This document shows, piece by piece, positions 18,880 to 25,619 of a stretch of DNA of 48,096 nt. The position numbers and the translations under genes were made by a program. The stretch covers positions 1-48,096 of the forward strand of contig CALAHN010000074.1 of the NCBI GenBank assembly GCA_937891825.1. Direction: 5' to 3'. The notes below the pieces were generated by a model. It was given only the letters and a program-made list of their open reading frames with translations, was not told where the DNA came from and made no database searches. The stretch comes from an uncultured Alphaproteobacteria bacterium. GTDB taxonomy: Bacteria; Pseudomonadota; Alphaproteobacteria; Bin95. Numbering within the stretch: the first letter of the stretch is position 1; every line of letters begins with the position of its first letter.

Positions 18880-19001
18880 GCCCTATGCCTCACAATGGTC
18901 TAGATCTGGCTTTACGATGCGCCGTCGGCCTTGCCCCTGTCCAGTCGGCGGGCGATAACCCGACAGTCCGGGGCGAGGCGAGCGATAGGAGAGCCTTTGA
19001 T

Positions 19002-20501
19002 ATGCGGCGAGCGATAAATATCCGGCAGATGTGCCGGTTCGGCGGGGTGGCGGCGATAGCTTTGGCGCTGGCCGCCTGCGACGCCTCCCATTCAGCCAAT
19101 CGGGCGACGCGGCCGACGACGGTGACGCCGCCGCCGCGCATTGCAGGCGTGCAGGCCCCGTCGACGCCGGTCGCGCCCCTGCGCGTCGGGCCGATCCGGA
19201 TCGCCTTGCTGGCCCCCCTCTCCGGCGAATTCCAGGATGCCGGGCGCGATCTCTCCAATGGCGCCGCGATGGGCCTTCTGGAGGCCCCAAGCGGATCGGC
19301 AGAGATCCTCGCCTTCGATACGGCCGGCGACATTGCAAAGACAACGGCGGCCCTCAAAGCGGCGATCGCCGCCGAGGCGGATATTGTGATCGGCCCATTG
19401 TTCGGCAAGAATGCGGCAGGCGTGGCGCCGAAACTCCAGGCCGCCAATTTGACCGCCTTGTCGTTCTCCAACGATGGGTCGGTCGCAAGCTCCCATGTGC
19501 TGATCATGGGACATGCGGTGCAGGTCGAGACCGCGCGCATCGTCCAGCATGCGGCGGCGAACGGGGCCGCGACGATAGCGGTCTTCGGCAAGGCGGACGC
19601 GACCGGCGAAGCCGCGCTGAGCCAGGCCAACCGCGAGGACGCCGCCGAACCGGGGCTCTTCATCCGCCCGGCTCTCTATGACGCCGGCACCAGCTACACG
19701 GACATCGCCCGCAATGTGCAGGACGTGCTGAATGCGCGCGGCCGGCAGGCAGAGCGGACGGAAACCGCCGGGCGCCTGAAAGCCCAATTGTCGGCGTCGC
19801 CCAATCCGGGCGGCGAGTTGCAACGGCTCGCCGTGACGCGGCCGCCGCAGGAGCGGCCGCTCTTCCAGTCGCTGGCGGAACAATTTCAGGGCCTGATCGC
19901 CGCCGGCGCCGTTCGCGAAAGCGCCATCAACGCCGTCGTCGCCCGCTATGCGGCCGAAGGCCCGCTTGGCGGCGGCGCCGTCAACGCCGTGCTGCTGACG
20001 ATCCGGGGCGGCGAGCTTTCGACCGTGGCGCCCATGTTCCAGTTGTATGACGCCGAAGCGTCTGGCGTTCGCCTGCTTGGCCTCTCGGGCTGGCTCGATA
20101 TGGATCCCGCCCGCGCCAGGGAACTGCACAACGGCCGCTTTGCCGCCCCGCCCGCTTCCGAGGCCTTCGACAATCGCTATGAAGCATCGTTCGGAAAATT
20201 TCCGTCGGAACTCGCGGCCGTCGCCTATGACACGGTGAAACTGGCGCTCGCCGCCAGCGCCGCACCGACGGCCCGCCCCATTCCGCCGGCCGCGATCAAA
20301 GCGCAGGGCGAAGTGATCGGCGCTGCCGGTCCGGTCCGGATGTCAGCCGCCGGTCTGGCGCTGCGCCCGCTCGAAGTCCTTGAAATGCGGCCCACCGGCG
20401 TATTCCCGATCGATCCAGCTCGAATTGTCGAGCCCGCCCATCCGTCGAATGCGGTCGGGACGCCAGCGCTGATTACCGCGCCGCGACCGGCTGGGTCCTA
20501 G
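19002..20501 (+). CDS. LppC-like lipoprotein (penicillin-binding protein activator family)
   Basis: The 499-residue lipoprotein has a signal with lipobox L23-A-A-C26. It is followed by a type-1 periplasmic-binding-protein fold beginning IRIALLAPLSGEFQDAGRDLSNGAAMGL and including ADIVIGPLFGKNAAGVAP. Such alphaproteobacterial proteins fall in the LppC/YraM family that includes the peptidoglycan-synthesis activator LpoA, although the group is diverse. AGGAGA lies 9 bases before the ATG at 19002, which fixes the start. The rsmI, yraN and gshB genes that often follow are absent; a hairpin element begins on the stop codon. Confidence 0.85.
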   Translation: MRRAINIRQMCRFGGVAAIALALAACDASHSANRATRPTTVTPPPRIAGVQAPSTPVAPLRVGPIRIALLAPLSGEFQDAGRDLSNGAAMGLLEAPSGSAEILAFDTAGDIAKTTAALKAAIAAEADIVIGPLFGKNAAGVAPKLQAANLTALSFSNDGSVASSHVLIMGHAVQVETARIVQHAAANGAATIAVFGKADATGEAALSQANREDAAEPGLFIRPALYDAGTSYTDIARNVQDVLNARGRQAERTETAGRLKAQLSASPNPGGELQRLAVTRPPQERPLFQSLAEQFQGLIAAGAVRESAINAVVARYAAEGPLGGGAVNAVLLTIRGGELSTVAPMFQLYDAEASGVRLLGLSGWLDMDPARARELHNGRFAAPPASEAFDNRYEASFGKFPSELAAVAYDTVKLALAASAAPTARPIPPAAIKAQGEVIGAAGPVRMSAAGLALRPLEVLEMRPTGVFPIDPARIVEPAHPSNAVGTPALITAPRPAGS

Positions 20502-20562
20502 AGCATGGCGCGTCCAGGCGGACGCGCCATGCTCTATCTAATTGATATCGATCAAATTATCC
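20500..20562. repeat. Hairpin-plus-tail intergenic repeat, copy 1
   Basis: AGAGCATGGCGCGTCC (20500-20515) pairs perfectly with GGACGCGCCATGCTCT (20520-20535) around an AGGC loop, a 16-bp stem that starts inside the TAG stop of the lipoprotein gene. Seven bases later comes TGATATCGATCAAATTATCC (20543-20562), in which TTGATATCGATCAA (20542-20555) is an exact FNR/FixK-type TTGAT-N4-ATCAA. The second copy is at 24934-25000. It lies between convergent genes, so the hairpin may also terminate transcription, though there is no T-run. Confidence 0.75.
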
Positions 20563-20596
20563 AATATTAGGCGATTGTTCCTAAGGTTGGTTTGAT

Positions 20597-20977
20597 TTAG
20601 ATCGTCGCCAACGGGATGTCGCCGCGCTTGGTTTCGACAATTGCGGAACCGCCGAATTCCGGCATCCGGATCATCAGGGCCATGCCTTCGCCGGCAGGGG
20701 TGAGGCGTTTCCGGCCGTAACGCGGCAAGGGCACGCCGGACGTCCGGCAATGCAGGATCAACGCCGCCGCCATCTCGATATAGGTCAGGTCAAGCTCGCG
20801 AAAGCCATCGCCATCGCCTGTGAAGCGCAGGCGTACATTATCCATGTTTGCAGTCCCCGGCACGACGCTGATCAGACGGCCCGGCGGCGGCTTCGTTTCC
20901 TGGCGGCTGCAATAGGCATAGGCCGCCGACACCAGCTCTTCCTGGTCGAAAATTATCGTTCGGGTTTCGATCGGCAT
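20597..20977 (-). CDS. Conserved hypothetical protein
   Basis: I do not recognise a family for this 126-residue protein. It has no signal peptide or membrane segment. Visible features are an N-terminal I-I-F-D-Q-E-E-L-V-S-A-A-Y-A-Y motif, a central FRELDLTYIEMAAALILHC helix, and a C-terminal strand-rich part. The composition suggests a small soluble alpha/beta protein. It is 63 bases downstream of the hydrolase gene. A nested inverted repeat (20983-20989 with 21013-21019) sits just before its start and may be an attenuator. Codon use is like its neighbours. Confidence 0.7.
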   Translation of the reverse strand: MPIETRTIIFDQEELVSAAYAYCSRQETKPPPGRLISVVPGTANMDNVRLRFTGDGDGFRELDLTYIEMAAALILHCRTSGVPLPRYGRKRLTPAGEGMALMIRMPEFGGSAIVETKRGDIPLATI

Positions 20978-21040
20978 AGCCTGCAGCTTTCATCGCGCCG
21001 GGTTCAATCCCGAAGCTGCGCCAGGCATGGTAAAGGCCGC

Positions 21041-22312
21041 CTAAACGGCAAGCGCCGCCGTCAGAAGTTTGGTTGTCTCGATGAAGTCCGGAATGGTCAT
21101 GGCCTCGTCGGGATTGTGGCTGCCATTGGCATTGCGGATGAACAGCATCGCGGTCGGCGCGCCGGCATCGGCGAACGCCGCCGAATCGTGGCTGGCGCCG
21201 CTGGGAATATCCATCGCCCGCACGCCAAGCGCCGCCGACGCCGCCCGGTATCGGTCGATCAGGGCGCCGTCCATGACGCCGGGCGCGGCCCGCGTGATGG
21301 CGCCCAGGTCGAAGGTCACGCCATGGCGCGCGGCGATATCCGCCGCCAGCGCCGGGACCCGCGCCTCCAATCGCGTCAGCACCGCCGGATCGACGCTCCG
21401 CATGTCCAGGGTGAAGGCGACCTTCCCCGAAATCACGGTCATGGCGTGGCGTTCGGCGTCGGTCTGGAACTTGCCGATGGTGCAGGCGAAATCCTCGCCC
21501 TTCGCCTCGGCTTCGTCCCAGAGCCGGTCCATCGCCTGCACGAATGCGGTCGCGGCGACCACGGCATCATGGCGCACCCGCCGGGGCGCCCCGCCGCAAT
21601 GGGCATATTCGCCCAGACAGACCGCGTTCGGAAACCGCCTGTTGCCGCGAATCCCGGTCACGATTCCGGCCGGAAATCCTTCCTCGACCAGCACCGGTCC
21701 CTGCTCGATATGCGGCTCCAGGAATGCGGCGATATCGGCGACGGCCAGATAGGGCGCGCCGTCCCTGACCCGGTCGGGATCGCCGCCGCAGGCCGCCATA
21801 TGCTCGGCCAGGGAGACGCCGTCGTCCATGCGCTTCGCCGTCTCCAGTGAGCCGTCCGGCAGAACCCCAAGCGCCGCCCGGCTGCCGATATAGGAGACGC
21901 CGAACCAGCAACTTTCCTCGGCGCGCACGCCCATCACCGTGATATCGCGCTCCGGCCGATGACCGATGGATTGCAACGCCCGGATCGCCGTCAGTCCCGC
22001 AACGACGCCGGCCGCGCCGTCGAAGTTCCCGCCCTGGGGCACGGAGTCCAGATGGGAGCCGACCATGTATTTGGGCTTCGAGCGGTCCTGGCCCGGCCAG
22101 GTCATGTAGGTGTTCGCCGCCGCGTCCTGGGCGATCTCGAGGCCAAGGCCGCGCGCGGTCTCCGCCATCAACGCGTGGGCCGCCTGCTCGCCCTTGCCGT
22201 AGCTGGCGCGAGTGACGCCGCGCACATCGACGCTCGCAGCGCGCAGGCGGTCGAAGACATCGGCGGTGAAATCGCTCTGCGCCGCGACAGCGCTCGCCAG
22301 GTCCGGCGTCAT
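21041..22312 (-). CDS. M20-type Zn-dependent hydrolase (N-carbamoyl-L-amino-acid hydrolase/allantoate amidohydrolase family)
   Basis: The 423-residue enzyme belongs to the AllC/HyuC/beta-ureidopropionase branch of M20 metallopeptidases. Predicted metal and catalytic residues are H87 and D89 (GSHLDSVPQGG), D98 (NFDGAAGV), E132-E133 (RAEES), H201 (PHIEQGPVL) and H399 (GSHNPDEA). It removes a carbamoyl or ureido group from an N-carbamoyl amino acid or ureidoglycolate-like substrate. It is last in a unit with two amidases (16-base gap). The exact substrate is not determinable from sequence. Confidence 0.88.
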   Translation of the reverse strand: MTPDLASAVAAQSDFTADVFDRLRAASVDVRGVTRASYGKGEQAAHALMAETARGLGLEIAQDAAANTYMTWPGQDRSKPKYMVGSHLDSVPQGGNFDGAAGVVAGLTAIRALQSIGHRPERDITVMGVRAEESCWFGVSYIGSRAALGVLPDGSLETAKRMDDGVSLAEHMAACGGDPDRVRDGAPYLAVADIAAFLEPHIEQGPVLVEEGFPAGIVTGIRGNRRFPNAVCLGEYAHCGGAPRRVRHDAVVAATAFVQAMDRLWDEAEAKGEDFACTIGKFQTDAERHAMTVISGKVAFTLDMRSVDPAVLTRLEARVPALAADIAARHGVTFDLGAITRAAPGVMDGALIDRYRAASAALGVRAMDIPSGASHDSAAFADAGAPTAMLFIRNANGSHNPDEAMTIPDFIETTKLLTAALAV

Positions 22313-22328
22313 GTCGTTTCCCCCGGGT

Positions 22329-23588
22329 TCAATGAAGCAAAGCGTGCAGCCAGCCGGCCGCCGCGATCGCGCGGGCGTCGTCGCCGAGCATCCCGATGAT
22401 CTGAACGCCTACCGGCAAGCCCTTCGGTCCTGTCAAGCCCGGAACCGTGACGCAGGGCGCGCCGGCGAACGTCCAGATGCGATTGAAATCGGGCGAGCCC
22501 GTAAACGCCAGCCCCTCCGGCGCCTCGCCCGGGGCCGCGGGGGTCAAGAGGACATCGACCGACCGGAAAGCTTCCGCGAGGGTCGCGCGGCATTCGGCGC
22601 GGACGTCGAGCGCCTGCCGATAGTCCGCATCGGACGCAGCGGCGCCGCGCTCAAGCACGGCCTGGAACGCCGGCGACAACGCGTCCCAATGTCGGGTCCG
22701 CTCATGGGCCAGCATGCGGCGCGCTTCGTAGGTCATGACGATGTCATGGGCGTCGAGCGCTTTGCCGAACGGCGTCGGCAGCTCCACGTCGACGACCGTG
22801 GCGCCCGCCTGCCGCGCCCGGTCCGCGGCTTCGTCGAGCGCCGCGGCGCTGGCATGCTCGACCGTCGGCCAGGCGGCCGTATGGCAGATGCCGAAGCGCG
22901 GCGGGCTGGCAGCAGGGGCTGCCGGATCGATCGTCGCGCCGGCCATCGCCTGCACGAGCGCGTGCGCGGCGGCCGGCGTCGTCGCCATGGCGCCGATCAC
23001 GTCCAGGCTTTCCGCCAGCATTTTCAGGCCGGCGCGCGGCACGGTTCCCCAGGTGGGTTTGAAGCCGACGGCGCCGCAGAACGCGGCCGGACGGATGACC
23101 GAACCCGAGGTCTGGGTCCCGATCGCGAGCGGCGCCTGCCCGTCGCCGACGGCGGCGGCCGAGCCGGAGGACGATCCGCCCGGCGTGTGCGCCAAATTGT
23201 GGGGGTTGCGCGTCTTGCCGGGGGTCCGCATCGCAAACTCGGTCGTCACGGTCTTGCCGATCACGACAAGACCCGCCTCGCGGAGCAAGGCGACGCAGGC
23301 GGCGTCCGCCAGGGGCCGCGCGCCCGCATAGATCGGGGAGCCATAGGCCGTCGGCAGGTCGGCTGTGTCGAGGACATCCTTGACGCCGACCGGGACGCCA
23401 TGAAGCGGGCTGCGGGGCTGTTCCCGGTCCCGCGCCGCCGCATTGGCGAACGCCTGGTCGCGGTCGATCGCCTGCCACGCGCCGACATCCTTGTCGCGGG
23501 CGTCGATCCGCAGGAACGCCGCCTCCAACGCCGCGACGGCGGTCAGTCGGCCAGCGGCGATCGCCTTGCCGATTTCGAGGGCATCCAT
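22329..23588 (-). CDS. Amidase-signature hydrolase (second of tandem pair)
   Basis: This 419-residue cytosolic amidase has triad residues K70 (VPVGVKDVLDT), S139 (TPGGSSSGS) and S163 (GTQTSGSVIRP). It is clearly paralogous to the gene immediately upstream: both share HGVP-x-GVKD, KTVTTEFA, TGKTRN-like and SVIRPA blocks. Its ATG follows the neighbour's TAG directly (TAGATG), so the two are translationally coupled. The QTSGS motif replaces the more common DTGGS, as in many plant-type and Rhizobiales amidases. Substrate unknown. Confidence 0.9.
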   Translation of the reverse strand: MDALEIGKAIAAGRLTAVAALEAAFLRIDARDKDVGAWQAIDRDQAFANAAARDREQPRSPLHGVPVGVKDVLDTADLPTAYGSPIYAGARPLADAACVALLREAGLVVIGKTVTTEFAMRTPGKTRNPHNLAHTPGGSSSGSAAAVGDGQAPLAIGTQTSGSVIRPAAFCGAVGFKPTWGTVPRAGLKMLAESLDVIGAMATTPAAAHALVQAMAGATIDPAAPAASPPRFGICHTAAWPTVEHASAAALDEAADRARQAGATVVDVELPTPFGKALDAHDIVMTYEARRMLAHERTRHWDALSPAFQAVLERGAAASDADYRQALDVRAECRATLAEAFRSVDVLLTPAAPGEAPEGLAFTGSPDFNRIWTFAGAPCVTVPGLTGPKGLPVGVQIIGMLGDDARAIAAAGWLHALLH

Positions 23589-24881
23589 CTAGGCGTCCTT
23601 CTTCAATGCATCCTGCAGCCAGGCGGCATGGGCGAGCGTTCCGGCCGCTCGGCCGGACGGCCCGATGACCTGCATCCCGATCGGCAGCCCATCCGGCCCG
23701 AACACGCCCGGCACGTTGACGACAGGGGCGCCGACCATGGTCCAGATCTGGTTCGCGACGGGGGAGCCGGTATCGGTCGGGTTCGGCGGCGCTTCGCCCG
23801 GCGCCGATGGGGTCACCAACACGCCGATCTCCGCGAACATCGGCCACATCACCGCGCGGCAGGAGGCCTGGATATTGCGGGCCCAGTCATAGCGTTCCCG
23901 CGTCATCTCCGCCCCGGCCGCGACATAATCCTTCAGCGCGCGGCTGACATCGTCGGACCGGAAGCGCAGTTCGTAGGCAAGCGACCGCGACGCTTCATAG
24001 CTCTGGATCGCCGCCTGGGCGTCAAGCGCCTCCCGGAAGGCCGGCGGGAGTTCGACTTCCAGCACGCTGGCGCCGGCGGCGCGGGCGCGATCGATCGCGT
24101 CGCGGCCTGCCTTGTGGGCGGCCTGGGAGAGATGCGGCCAGGCGGGCGTGCGCGCGAAGGCGAGCCTTGGGCGCGTCAACGTCGCCAATGCCGGCCCCTC
24201 GATGGCTTCCAGGATCGCAGCGAAGGCCGCCGCGTCGGCGACATCGCGGGCAAAGACGCCAATGGTGTCCAGGGATTCCGAAACGCTTTTGACGCCGGCG
24301 CGCGGAATCCGCCCGAATGTCGGCTTGAACCCGACGACGCCGCAATAGGAGGCCGGCCGAATGACCGAGCCGCCGGTCTGGGTGCCAATCGCCAGGGGAA
24401 CCTGAAAGTCGGCGACCGCCGCGGCAGAGCCGGAGGACGACCCGCCCGGCGAATGGCTTGGGCGCAACGGGTTGCGGGTCTTGCCGGCCGTCCGGAGCGC
24501 GAATTCCGTCGTGACCGTCTTGCCAAGCGGCACCAGGCCCGCATGCCGCGCCAGCGCGACGGCGGCGGCGTCGCCGATCTCCGGCTGGGCGTCGGCATAG
24601 ATCTTCGAGCCCATGCGCGTCGGCGCGCCGGCCATGTCGATGATGTCCTTCACCCCGAACGGCACGCCATGCAGGATGCTCCGGGGCTTTTCGGCGTCCC
24701 GGGCGCGCGCCTCGGCCAGGGCGGCCTCCGGATCGAGGTAGGTCCAGGCGCCGACCTGCTCGTCGCGCAGCGCGATCCTGTCCAGGCAAGCGCGGGTCAG
24801 CGCTTCGGACGTCAGGTCGCCACGCGCAATTGCGGCAGCGGCTTCCAGGGCGGTCAACCCATTCGGCGTATCATTCGACAT
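23589..24881 (-). CDS. Amidase-signature hydrolase (first of tandem pair)
   Basis: The 430-residue enzyme has K78 (VPFGVKDIIDM), S148 (SPGGSSSGS) and S172 (GTQTGGSVIRP) in the expected spacing of 24 between the serines. It heads the amidase-amidase-hydrolase unit. Together the three could break down an amide-bearing ureide stepwise, first the amide and then the N-carbamoyl group, which is inference from co-location. Copy 2 of the hairpin repeat lies 53-119 bases upstream of its ATG and could form part of its leader. Confidence 0.9.
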   Translation of the reverse strand: MSNDTPNGLTALEAAAAIARGDLTSEALTRACLDRIALRDEQVGAWTYLDPEAALAEARARDAEKPRSILHGVPFGVKDIIDMAGAPTRMGSKIYADAQPEIGDAAAVALARHAGLVPLGKTVTTEFALRTAGKTRNPLRPSHSPGGSSSGSAAAVADFQVPLAIGTQTGGSVIRPASYCGVVGFKPTFGRIPRAGVKSVSESLDTIGVFARDVADAAAFAAILEAIEGPALATLTRPRLAFARTPAWPHLSQAAHKAGRDAIDRARAAGASVLEVELPPAFREALDAQAAIQSYEASRSLAYELRFRSDDVSRALKDYVAAGAEMTRERYDWARNIQASCRAVMWPMFAEIGVLVTPSAPGEAPPNPTDTGSPVANQIWTMVGAPVVNVPGVFGPDGLPIGMQVIGPSGRAAGTLAHAAWLQDALKKDA

Positions 24882-24933
24882 ACAAAGGGGAGCTCACATG
24901 GCAACGGACGGCGCAAGCGATCACCATAGGGCT

Positions 24934-25000
24934 AGAGGATGGCGCGCTCAAGCGAGCGCGCAGCCCATCCTCTATCTTCATGATATCGATCAAATAATCC
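24934..25000. repeat. Hairpin-plus-tail intergenic repeat, copy 2
   Basis: AGAGGATGGCGCGCTC (24934-24949) pairs with GAGCGCG (24954-24960) plus CCATCCTCT (24965-24973); the intervening CAGC is a bulge. After seven bases comes TGATATCGATCAAATAATCC (24981-25000), identical to copy 1 at 19 of 20 bases. The stem differs from copy 1 at three base pairs and each change is compensated on the other strand. It sits just beyond the 3' end of the GNAT gene and upstream of the amidase pair. Confidence 0.72.
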
Positions 25001-25004
25001 GATC

Positions 25005-25619
25005 TCAGACATCGCCGATAACCGGAATGTGGAAAGCCGCGTCCTTCGACAGCACCCCAAGCAGACGCGGATCGGGAAAGATGCCGACCGTCCGCCGATA
25101 GGCCCGGAAGCCGTGGCGAAGGTAAAATGGCAGCGCGTGCGGATGGTCGTGAGTGCAGGTGTGCAGCCAGACCCGGCTGGGGCTGTCCCGCCAGGCGCGC
25201 GCCAGAGCCGCCCGCATCAGGCAATGGCCGGCCTTGCCGCCGATCTCGCTCGCCGCGACGCCGAAGAATGCAATCTGGACCTCATGGGCGACGCGGAAGT
25301 CCAATTCCAGCAGGCCGACATCCGCCGCTTCCCGCCGCAATACGTAAACCTCGTTCCCCGGATCGCGCAGAATCGCCGCGATTTCGCCTCTTGGCGTCAC
25401 AAGCCGGCTTTGCCAAAGCCAGGCGGCGCCGATCGTGCGGTAGAGTCCGAGATACCAATCGAGATCGGGCTTGAGGCGGCGCTCCACCCGCCAGGGGCCA
25501 GCGCATGGCGCCAGGTCGGACGGCGTCAGATCGGGCGGCGGAGCGCGCATTTCCAGGTGGGTCACGACCTCCGCCAGCATGCCGTCGGGCACGGCGATTT
25601 CCTGGTAGTCGGCCGACAT
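25005..25619 (-). CDS. GNAT-family N-acetyltransferase
   Basis: The 204-residue protein has the GNAT fold: a central strand V-Y-V-L-R-R-E, VGLLELDFRVAHEVQIAFFGVAASEIGGKAGHCLMRAALARAW containing the acetyl-CoA pyrophosphate loop region (G-G-K-A-G), and the late HTCTHDHPHALPFYLRHGFRAYRR, which is the hallmark A-x-x-F-Y-x-x-x-G-F motif. The acceptor is unknown. It is last in the six-gene operon that starts at 29509, 7 bases after the dioxygenase remnant. Confidence 0.88.
   Translation of the reverse strand: MSADYQEIAVPDGMLAEVVTHLEMRAPPPDLTPSDLAPCAGPWRVERRLKPDLDWYLGLYRTIGAAWLWQSRLVTPRGEIAAILRDPGNEVYVLRREAADVGLLELDFRVAHEVQIAFFGVAASEIGGKAGHCLMRAALARAWRDSPSRVWLHTCTHDHPHALPFYLRHGFRAYRRTVGIFPDPRLLGVLSKDAAFHIPVIGDV

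Follow-up and report, generated by a model that had tools for sequence, protein, structure and literature searches.

A two-hairpin, probably mobile repeat that often ends on stop codons in an uncultured alphaproteobacterium

The window analyzed here, a stretch of 48,096 nucleotides (contig CALAHN010000074.1 of assembly GCA_937891825.1, an uncultured Alphaproteobacteria bacterium), contains two intergenic copies of a double-hairpin element that occurs more than 100 times in the 4.3 Mb host genome. The element is probably a non-autonomous mobile repeat resembling miniature inverted-repeat transposable elements (MITEs), of the two-arm kind found in Alphaproteobacteria (CIR, RIME, and Bru-RS), and is best read as a new lineage-specific subfamily of this type. 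In 58 of 102 host copies, 4 of them at both ends, the terminal TAG or TAA is the exact stop codon of a neighboring gene. To describe this element, we combined a covariance-model search, comparisons with congeners and rhizobial plasmids, and an analysis of its termini.

Architecture, copy number, and fold

As originally predicted from the window, the element consisted of two copies of a covarying hairpin followed by an invariant 20-base tail. Both hairpins were confirmed at their positions, as were the single difference between the tails, the three compensated base pairs, and the 4-base bulge of copy 2. In contrast, the tail is no module of its own; it comprises a linker and the left foot (ATCAAA) of a second hairpin, and the element does not end there. 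The complete unit is about 105 bp long (range 101–109 bp) and is composed of a TA-ended hairpin A, a 14-base linker, and hairpin B, with the family consensus, from left to right, TAGAGCATGGCGCGTCCAAGTGGACGCGCGGTCCATGCTCTA TCTTATTGATAGCG ATCAAA TTAT CCAACCTTAGGCG ATTC CGCCTAAGGTTGG TTTGAT CTA, in which TCTTATTGATAGCG is the linker. This consensus and the true extent were obtained by reading 30 of the 42 places at which a 15-mer of the tail occurs in the 4.3 Mb genome with at most one mismatch (reversed control, 0), a recurrence not due to chance. Hairpins A and B show no sequence relation to each other. A 4-base bulge faces the linker from either side, on the 3′ arm in hairpin A, where it is optional, and on the 5′ arm in hairpin B. 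Additionally, GANTC is found at the loop of hairpin B in approximately 33 of 77 host copies (window background, 1.1 per kb), and one host subfamily has GTTTC in place of GATTC. An internal-deletion form was also observed (L141:3001–3056; CTCTACTCTTTTTGATCTAG), in which hairpin A and both ends are present and hairpin B is cleanly gone.

In the window, copy 1 (20499–20599, plus strand) is a complete element of 101 bp in the form without the hairpin A bulge, scoring 102.8 bits with the covariance model (E = 8.5e-19 for the genome). Its hairpin A (20499–20536) forms a perfect 17-bp stem with a 4-base loop and begins with TAG, followed by the linker TCTAATTGATATCG (20537–20550) and by hairpin B (20551–20596), which has the foot ATCAAA/TTTGAT, a TTAT bulge on the 5′ arm, and an imperfect upper stem. 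This second hairpin thus ends in TTTGAT plus TTA at 20599. Copy 2 (24933–25006, plus strand; 62.9 bits, E = 5e-10) is broken in hairpin B: hairpin A (24933–24974), whose 3′ arm has the 4-base bulge, and the linker TCTTCATGATATCG (24975–24988) are followed by what is left of hairpin B, a piece of its left arm (24989–25006), and the right arm is gone. The segment TTGATATCGATCAA in copy 1 was considered as an FNR/CRP-like regulator site and rejected, because these bases make up the linker plus the hairpin B foot and differ between subfamilies.

Searched with a covariance model trained on 23 copies, the host genome yielded 137 matches at E < 0.01 and, in a second run, 97 at E < 1e-4. Some of the weaker matches are partial copies, and others are hairpins reported a second time on the opposite strand, so that "over 100" is the figure we regard as safe. 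Several hairpin B subfamilies (CCAACCTTAGGCG, CCAGTCTTAGGCG, CCCGCTTTTGGCG, and CCATTCTTAGGCG) exist side by side, and the copies differ in age, from fresh to decayed, with decayed ones common. At least five contigs break off within an element, which is what near-identical copies would lead one to expect; at L135–L139, the contigs end at the linker. This metagenome-assembled genome (MAG) therefore understates both the number of copies and the mobile-element content.

The original prediction was to be given up if the genome held no further copies and its relatives none, and it withstood this test; beyond the host copies, a divergent version was found in two congeners, with 13 matches in one (G001) and 4 in the other (G003). 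In this version (CTAGAGCGCCGTGCGTCGCTTGCGACGCAGCCCGGCGCTCTATCACATTGATTGCGGGCAATTTATCCCGACCAATCTGATTCAGATTGGTCGGGAATTGCCCTAG; linker TCACATTGATTGC), the stems differ, and the length, the bulges, and the linker are as in the host element. TA is present at both ends in 17/17 congener copies and in 46/102 host copies, many of the remainder being decayed or cut, and GANTC lies at the loop in 12 of the 17. No matches were obtained with the covariance model in two other congeners, nine genomes of the same family, or 26 genomes of the same class.

The DNA of both copies folds far more strongly than shuffled sequences (z = -9.3 for copy 1 and z = -4.5 for copy 2), and a strong fold is present on both strands. 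Among 86 distinct matches, 93% of the alignment cells pair, and both-sided changes occur at 28 of 35 pairs. In this alignment, 257 cells are changed on both sides, compared with 66 ± 11.5 in shuffles and 30–53 with slid partners, a figure biased upward by the fitting of this alignment to the structure; in A1, an alignment made without such fitting, 31 such cells were counted against 9.7 ± 2.7. For copy-specific stem changes in young copies, 86 break a pair, 32 give G-U, and 19 are both-sided and paired. Moreover, the compensated pairs at columns 15/24 and 16/23 separate subfamilies common to many copies, and in the 23-sequence alignment the C-G to G-C pair is the only one of the three that is private to copy 2. 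The proposal that selection or spread had kept the fold therefore stands for spread, by copy number, while covariation alone does not indicate selection on each copy. We read the fold as maintained in the spreading lineage rather than in each inserted copy, and hairpin-templated correction could be another source of both-sided changes. Fold and covariation would also suit a free-standing small RNA gene; this is most improbable, given that the only Rfam match in the window is one tRNA, that the copies are dispersed beside unrelated genes, and that no promoter was seen near copy 1.

Position at stop codons and CTAG sites

Based on gene calls by a simple codon-usage scorer trained on the window, none of the 102 host copies lies inside a called gene, and a single copy from a congener (L062) falls within a weak gene call. 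The coincidence with stop codons is exact: 62 facing gene 3′ ends are at the exact-stop distance from the element, and no other distance is represented more than three times. In the window, the TAG that begins copy 1 (20499–20501) is the stop codon of the plus-strand gene 18885–20501, which encodes a periplasmic binding protein (Peripla_BP_6) ending in ...PRPAGS*. At its other end, the last three bases (20597–20599), read as TAA on the minus strand, are the stop codon of the minus-strand gene 20597–20977, whose protein ends in ...PLATI*. Both convergent neighbors thus stop within the termini of copy 1. Similarly, a minus-strand acetyltransferase gene (25005–25619) has its stop TGA at the edge of the hairpin B remnant of copy 2. 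The minus-strand gene ends had been recognized beforehand, and the plus-strand stop at the start of copy 1 had been missed.

The probable insertion target of the element is CTAG/YTAR. As a control, 85 CTAG sites outside elements in 380 kb of host DNA were classified, with 24 at stops, 31 intergenic, and 30 in genes. If insertions in genes are lost, 24/55 (44%) of the survivors are expected at stops, and 58/102 (57%) were seen. Because this control, together with the loss of in-gene copies, gives nearly the observed share, the stop-codon location is mainly a by-product of the CTAG/YTAR target. A dedicated mechanism of stop-codon targeting was considered and is not needed; most of the pattern follows from the rarity of CTAG in genes and from the loss of disruptive insertions. 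In the window, CTAG is strongly avoided (15 sites in 48 kb, with ~147 expected from base composition).

Furthermore, gene ends with an exact stop at the element are convergent in 34 of 60 cases, compared with 62 of 242 in the background (p = 1e-5), and the excess holds against gene ends with a YTAR stop (14/57; p = 6e-4). This excess is stronger than CTAG/YTAR targeting explains. Loss of operon-blocking copies, or selection for insulation, would give it. One alternative is that the host keeps the element as a bidirectional terminator or 3′-end stabilizer, with the stop-codon position selected for that role. The strong folds on both strands, the location at 3′ ends, the excess between convergent genes, and the linker and bulge sequences 3′ of each stem, which are T-rich relative to the GC-rich genome, are all in its favor. 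However, no site around copy 1 fits the simple intrinsic-terminator consensus of a GC hairpin and a T run, the share at stops is near the expectation from CTAG targeting and in-gene loss, the copy-specific stem changes mostly break pairs, and decayed copies are common. We therefore consider this alternative rather unlikely, and any host function of the element is a candidate only and unproven.

One gene has orthologues with identical C-termini in the host genome and in G001, each with an element at its stop (L091:975–1079 in the host and L110:1501–1604 in G001). The identical C-termini indicate that the stop in this case preceded the insertion, with no truncation of the gene. The stems of these two elements, on the stop of one orthologue, are unrelated; they may represent two independent insertions at one CTAG or an old insertion with replaced stems. 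Elsewhere in the window, two adjacent paralogous Amidase (Pfam) genes (22329–23588 and 23589–24881, minus strand; 74% identity over 202 bases) lie beside an M20 peptidase gene.

Insertion site and candidate transposases

The left tip of the element is TA|GAGC in both the host and congener lineages, and the right end is GATC-TA in the host and GCCC-TA in the congeners. This left tip is identical to an end of IS630-type elements. In alphaproteobacterial IS630 elements, both ends read CTAG|AGC, approximately 1.05 kb apart, in 9 of 30 sampled loci, all in CTAG, and among the terminal tetramers flanked by TA, GAGC occurs at the most loci (9/30; next, 5/30). The nine loci (L205, L207, L208, L209, L212, L214, L217, L225, and L226) come from nine genomes, and their ends differ beyond the GAGC tip. 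Within the genus, G001 carries an IS630 3′ fragment ending in GGAATCTGCTCTAA, that is, with the tip TTAGAGCAGATTCCC. Judged from these tips, an IS630-type (Tc1/mariner-like) transposase is the best candidate mobilizer, better than an IS5-type one, and is not proven.

A transposase of the IS5/IS427 type (IS711-like), with a YTAR target and TA duplication, might act instead. G001 contains TA-flanked elements of the IS5 type, and the target of IS711 in Brucella is YTAR (PMC2266754), with a preference for Bru-RS repeats (PMC2266754, PMC3163539). In contrast, the element is closer to the IS630 tip TA|GAGC than to the ends of these IS5-type elements (TTA|GGCTCC, tip GGCTCC), so the IS630 type is preferred and an IS5-type mobilizer seems unlikely.

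We also compared the element with the REPIN/BIME repeats of RAYT systems (PMC3733652), in which two facing hairpins stand by a fixed tetranucleotide, in high copy number and extragenically. A REPIN-like element would be moved by a RAYT (Y1 HUH) transposase that recognizes a bulged hairpin beside a tetranucleotide. Read on its own strand, each hairpin here indeed stands after CTAG and bulges by 3–4 bases on its 3′ arm, the hairpins are in inverted order, and the stems change freely while the shape is kept. However, the tetranucleotide is CTAG and not GTAG/CGTC, the flanking base is not fixed, and the arms, of 38–46 bases, are mutually unlike; one REP repeated twice in inverted order is not what was found, as hairpins A and B are unrelated. 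Moreover, Y1 transposase (Y1_Tnp, PF01797; RAYT or IS200/IS605) was detected in 0 of 5 genomes of the genus, including the 99.97% complete host genome, in a search that was positive in the Escherichia coli and Caulobacter controls. Movement by a RAYT is thus very unlikely.

Several points weigh against mobilization of the element by an IS630-type transposase at TA. The flanking bases are asymmetric (upstream C in 22 of 46 copies, downstream G in 36 of 46). The right end, GATC or GCCC, does not match the IS630 tip and does not mirror the left end, and there is accordingly no true terminal inverted repeat. No IS630-type DDE_3 transposase was found in the host genome, a draft MAG from which repeats may be missing. 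The TA-flanked IS5-type elements of G001 and the use of YTAR by Brucella IS711 also count on this side. No clean empty site was recovered from congener synteny, where junctions are unreadable because the DNA is only about 70–80% identical, and a test of the upstream base for TA duplication was not significant (p = 0.43). A duplication of TA on insertion is a candidate only, suggested by the TA at both ends and the YTAR flanks.

Taken together, these results allow a mechanism to be proposed in which a transposase, possibly of the IS630 type, would act in trans and insert the element at Y-TA-R sites, for the most part CTAG, so that TA remains at either end. CTAG is rare in this genome, and over a quarter of the sampled sites are stop codons, so surviving insertions would lie largely on stops. 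The base of the element next to TA is G (TAG...), so the stop would be regenerated and the protein would remain unchanged. Once inserted, the element would give messages a 3′ end with two hairpins. Its overrepresentation between convergent genes suggests that it impedes transcriptional read-through, and copies inside operons would be lost.

Relation to known repeats and significance

CIR repeats are described as intergenic units of ~110 bp with two arms and a linker, GANTC at the terminal loop, and TA ends, lacking a terminal inverted repeat and with mobility unresolved (PMC2229807). The present element resembles these repeats of Caulobacter, Brucella, and other Alphaproteobacteria in size, the two long arms, the linker, the GANTC loop, the TA ends, the lack of a terminal inverted repeat, the intergenic position, and the presence of CcrM in the genome. 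This likeness is to the published description and not to the sequence, and the GTTTC loop of one host subfamily differs. For CIR, we found no description of a stop-codon coincidence or an IS630 tip in the literature consulted. The CcrM-like protein of the host genome comprises 356 aa with a RAMA domain (E = 3.7e-15) and should methylate GANTC in the loop of the element. An old copy that retains GATTC lies within ~90 bases 3′ of the ccrM gene itself (L242:742–1812, plus strand; element at about 1896–1980, G000:C56).

A BLAST search with the consensus gave weak matches (E = 6e-3) to a hairpin in Rhizobium plasmids. This hairpin is part of a two-hairpin element, with the ends TAGAGCG...GCTCTA, the linker TCACTTTGAATC, and GATTC at 77–78, the same offset from the left end as in the host and congener elements. 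Homologous elements are present in plasmids of Rhizobium, Sinorhizobium, and Nitratireductor, which bears out the predicted resemblance of a dispersed intergenic element to palindromic repeats of Rhizobiales. The RIME-like rhizobial repeats share the TAGAGCG...GCTCTA hairpin A, the bulge on the 3′ arm, the offset of GATTC in hairpin B, and the proximity to gene 3′ ends, and their linker resembles the congener linker TCACATTGATTGC. In contrast, the hairpin B stems are unrelated, and the rhizobial right end is less often YTAR in the copies inspected. Used as a class-wide probe, the rhizobial linker matched once in 190 genomes, and the matched sequence did not fold as an element. We presume that the rhizobial matches are the published RIME1, and we take the host, congener, and rhizobial elements to be one family. 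The names CIR and RIME are applied to the present element provisionally, by way of the description in a review (PMC2229807).

By description, the element is also similar to Bru-RS1/Bru-RS2 of Brucella, a 103-bp palindromic intergenic repeat tied to YTAR (PMC3163539, PMC2266754), and to RUP, an IS630-derived MITE of ~107 bp with ~100 intergenic copies, TA targets, and a tip shared with IS630 (PMC2229807). The two ends of RUP, however, carry similar terminal inverted repeats, while in the present element the left tip alone matches and the ends are unlike.

The kind of repeat described here is already known from related bacteria; its mode of spread was not, and a review notes that the mechanism of mobility of such repeats needs more information (PMC2229807). 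The YTAR/CTAG insertion site, the tip identical to local IS630 ends, and the stop-codon coincidence in more than half of the copies provide three testable handles. Between lineages, the stems are wholly replaced and the length, bulges, linker, and GATTC position are kept; shape, not sequence, is therefore what is kept. Repeats of this two-arm kind are abundant in Alphaproteobacteria. As a tentative generalization, for which we judge the chances to be somewhat below even, CIR, RIME, Bru-RS, and the present subfamily may be mobilized in trans by IS630-type transposases via CTAG, with stop codons serving as a harmless niche and the double hairpin insulating convergent genes.

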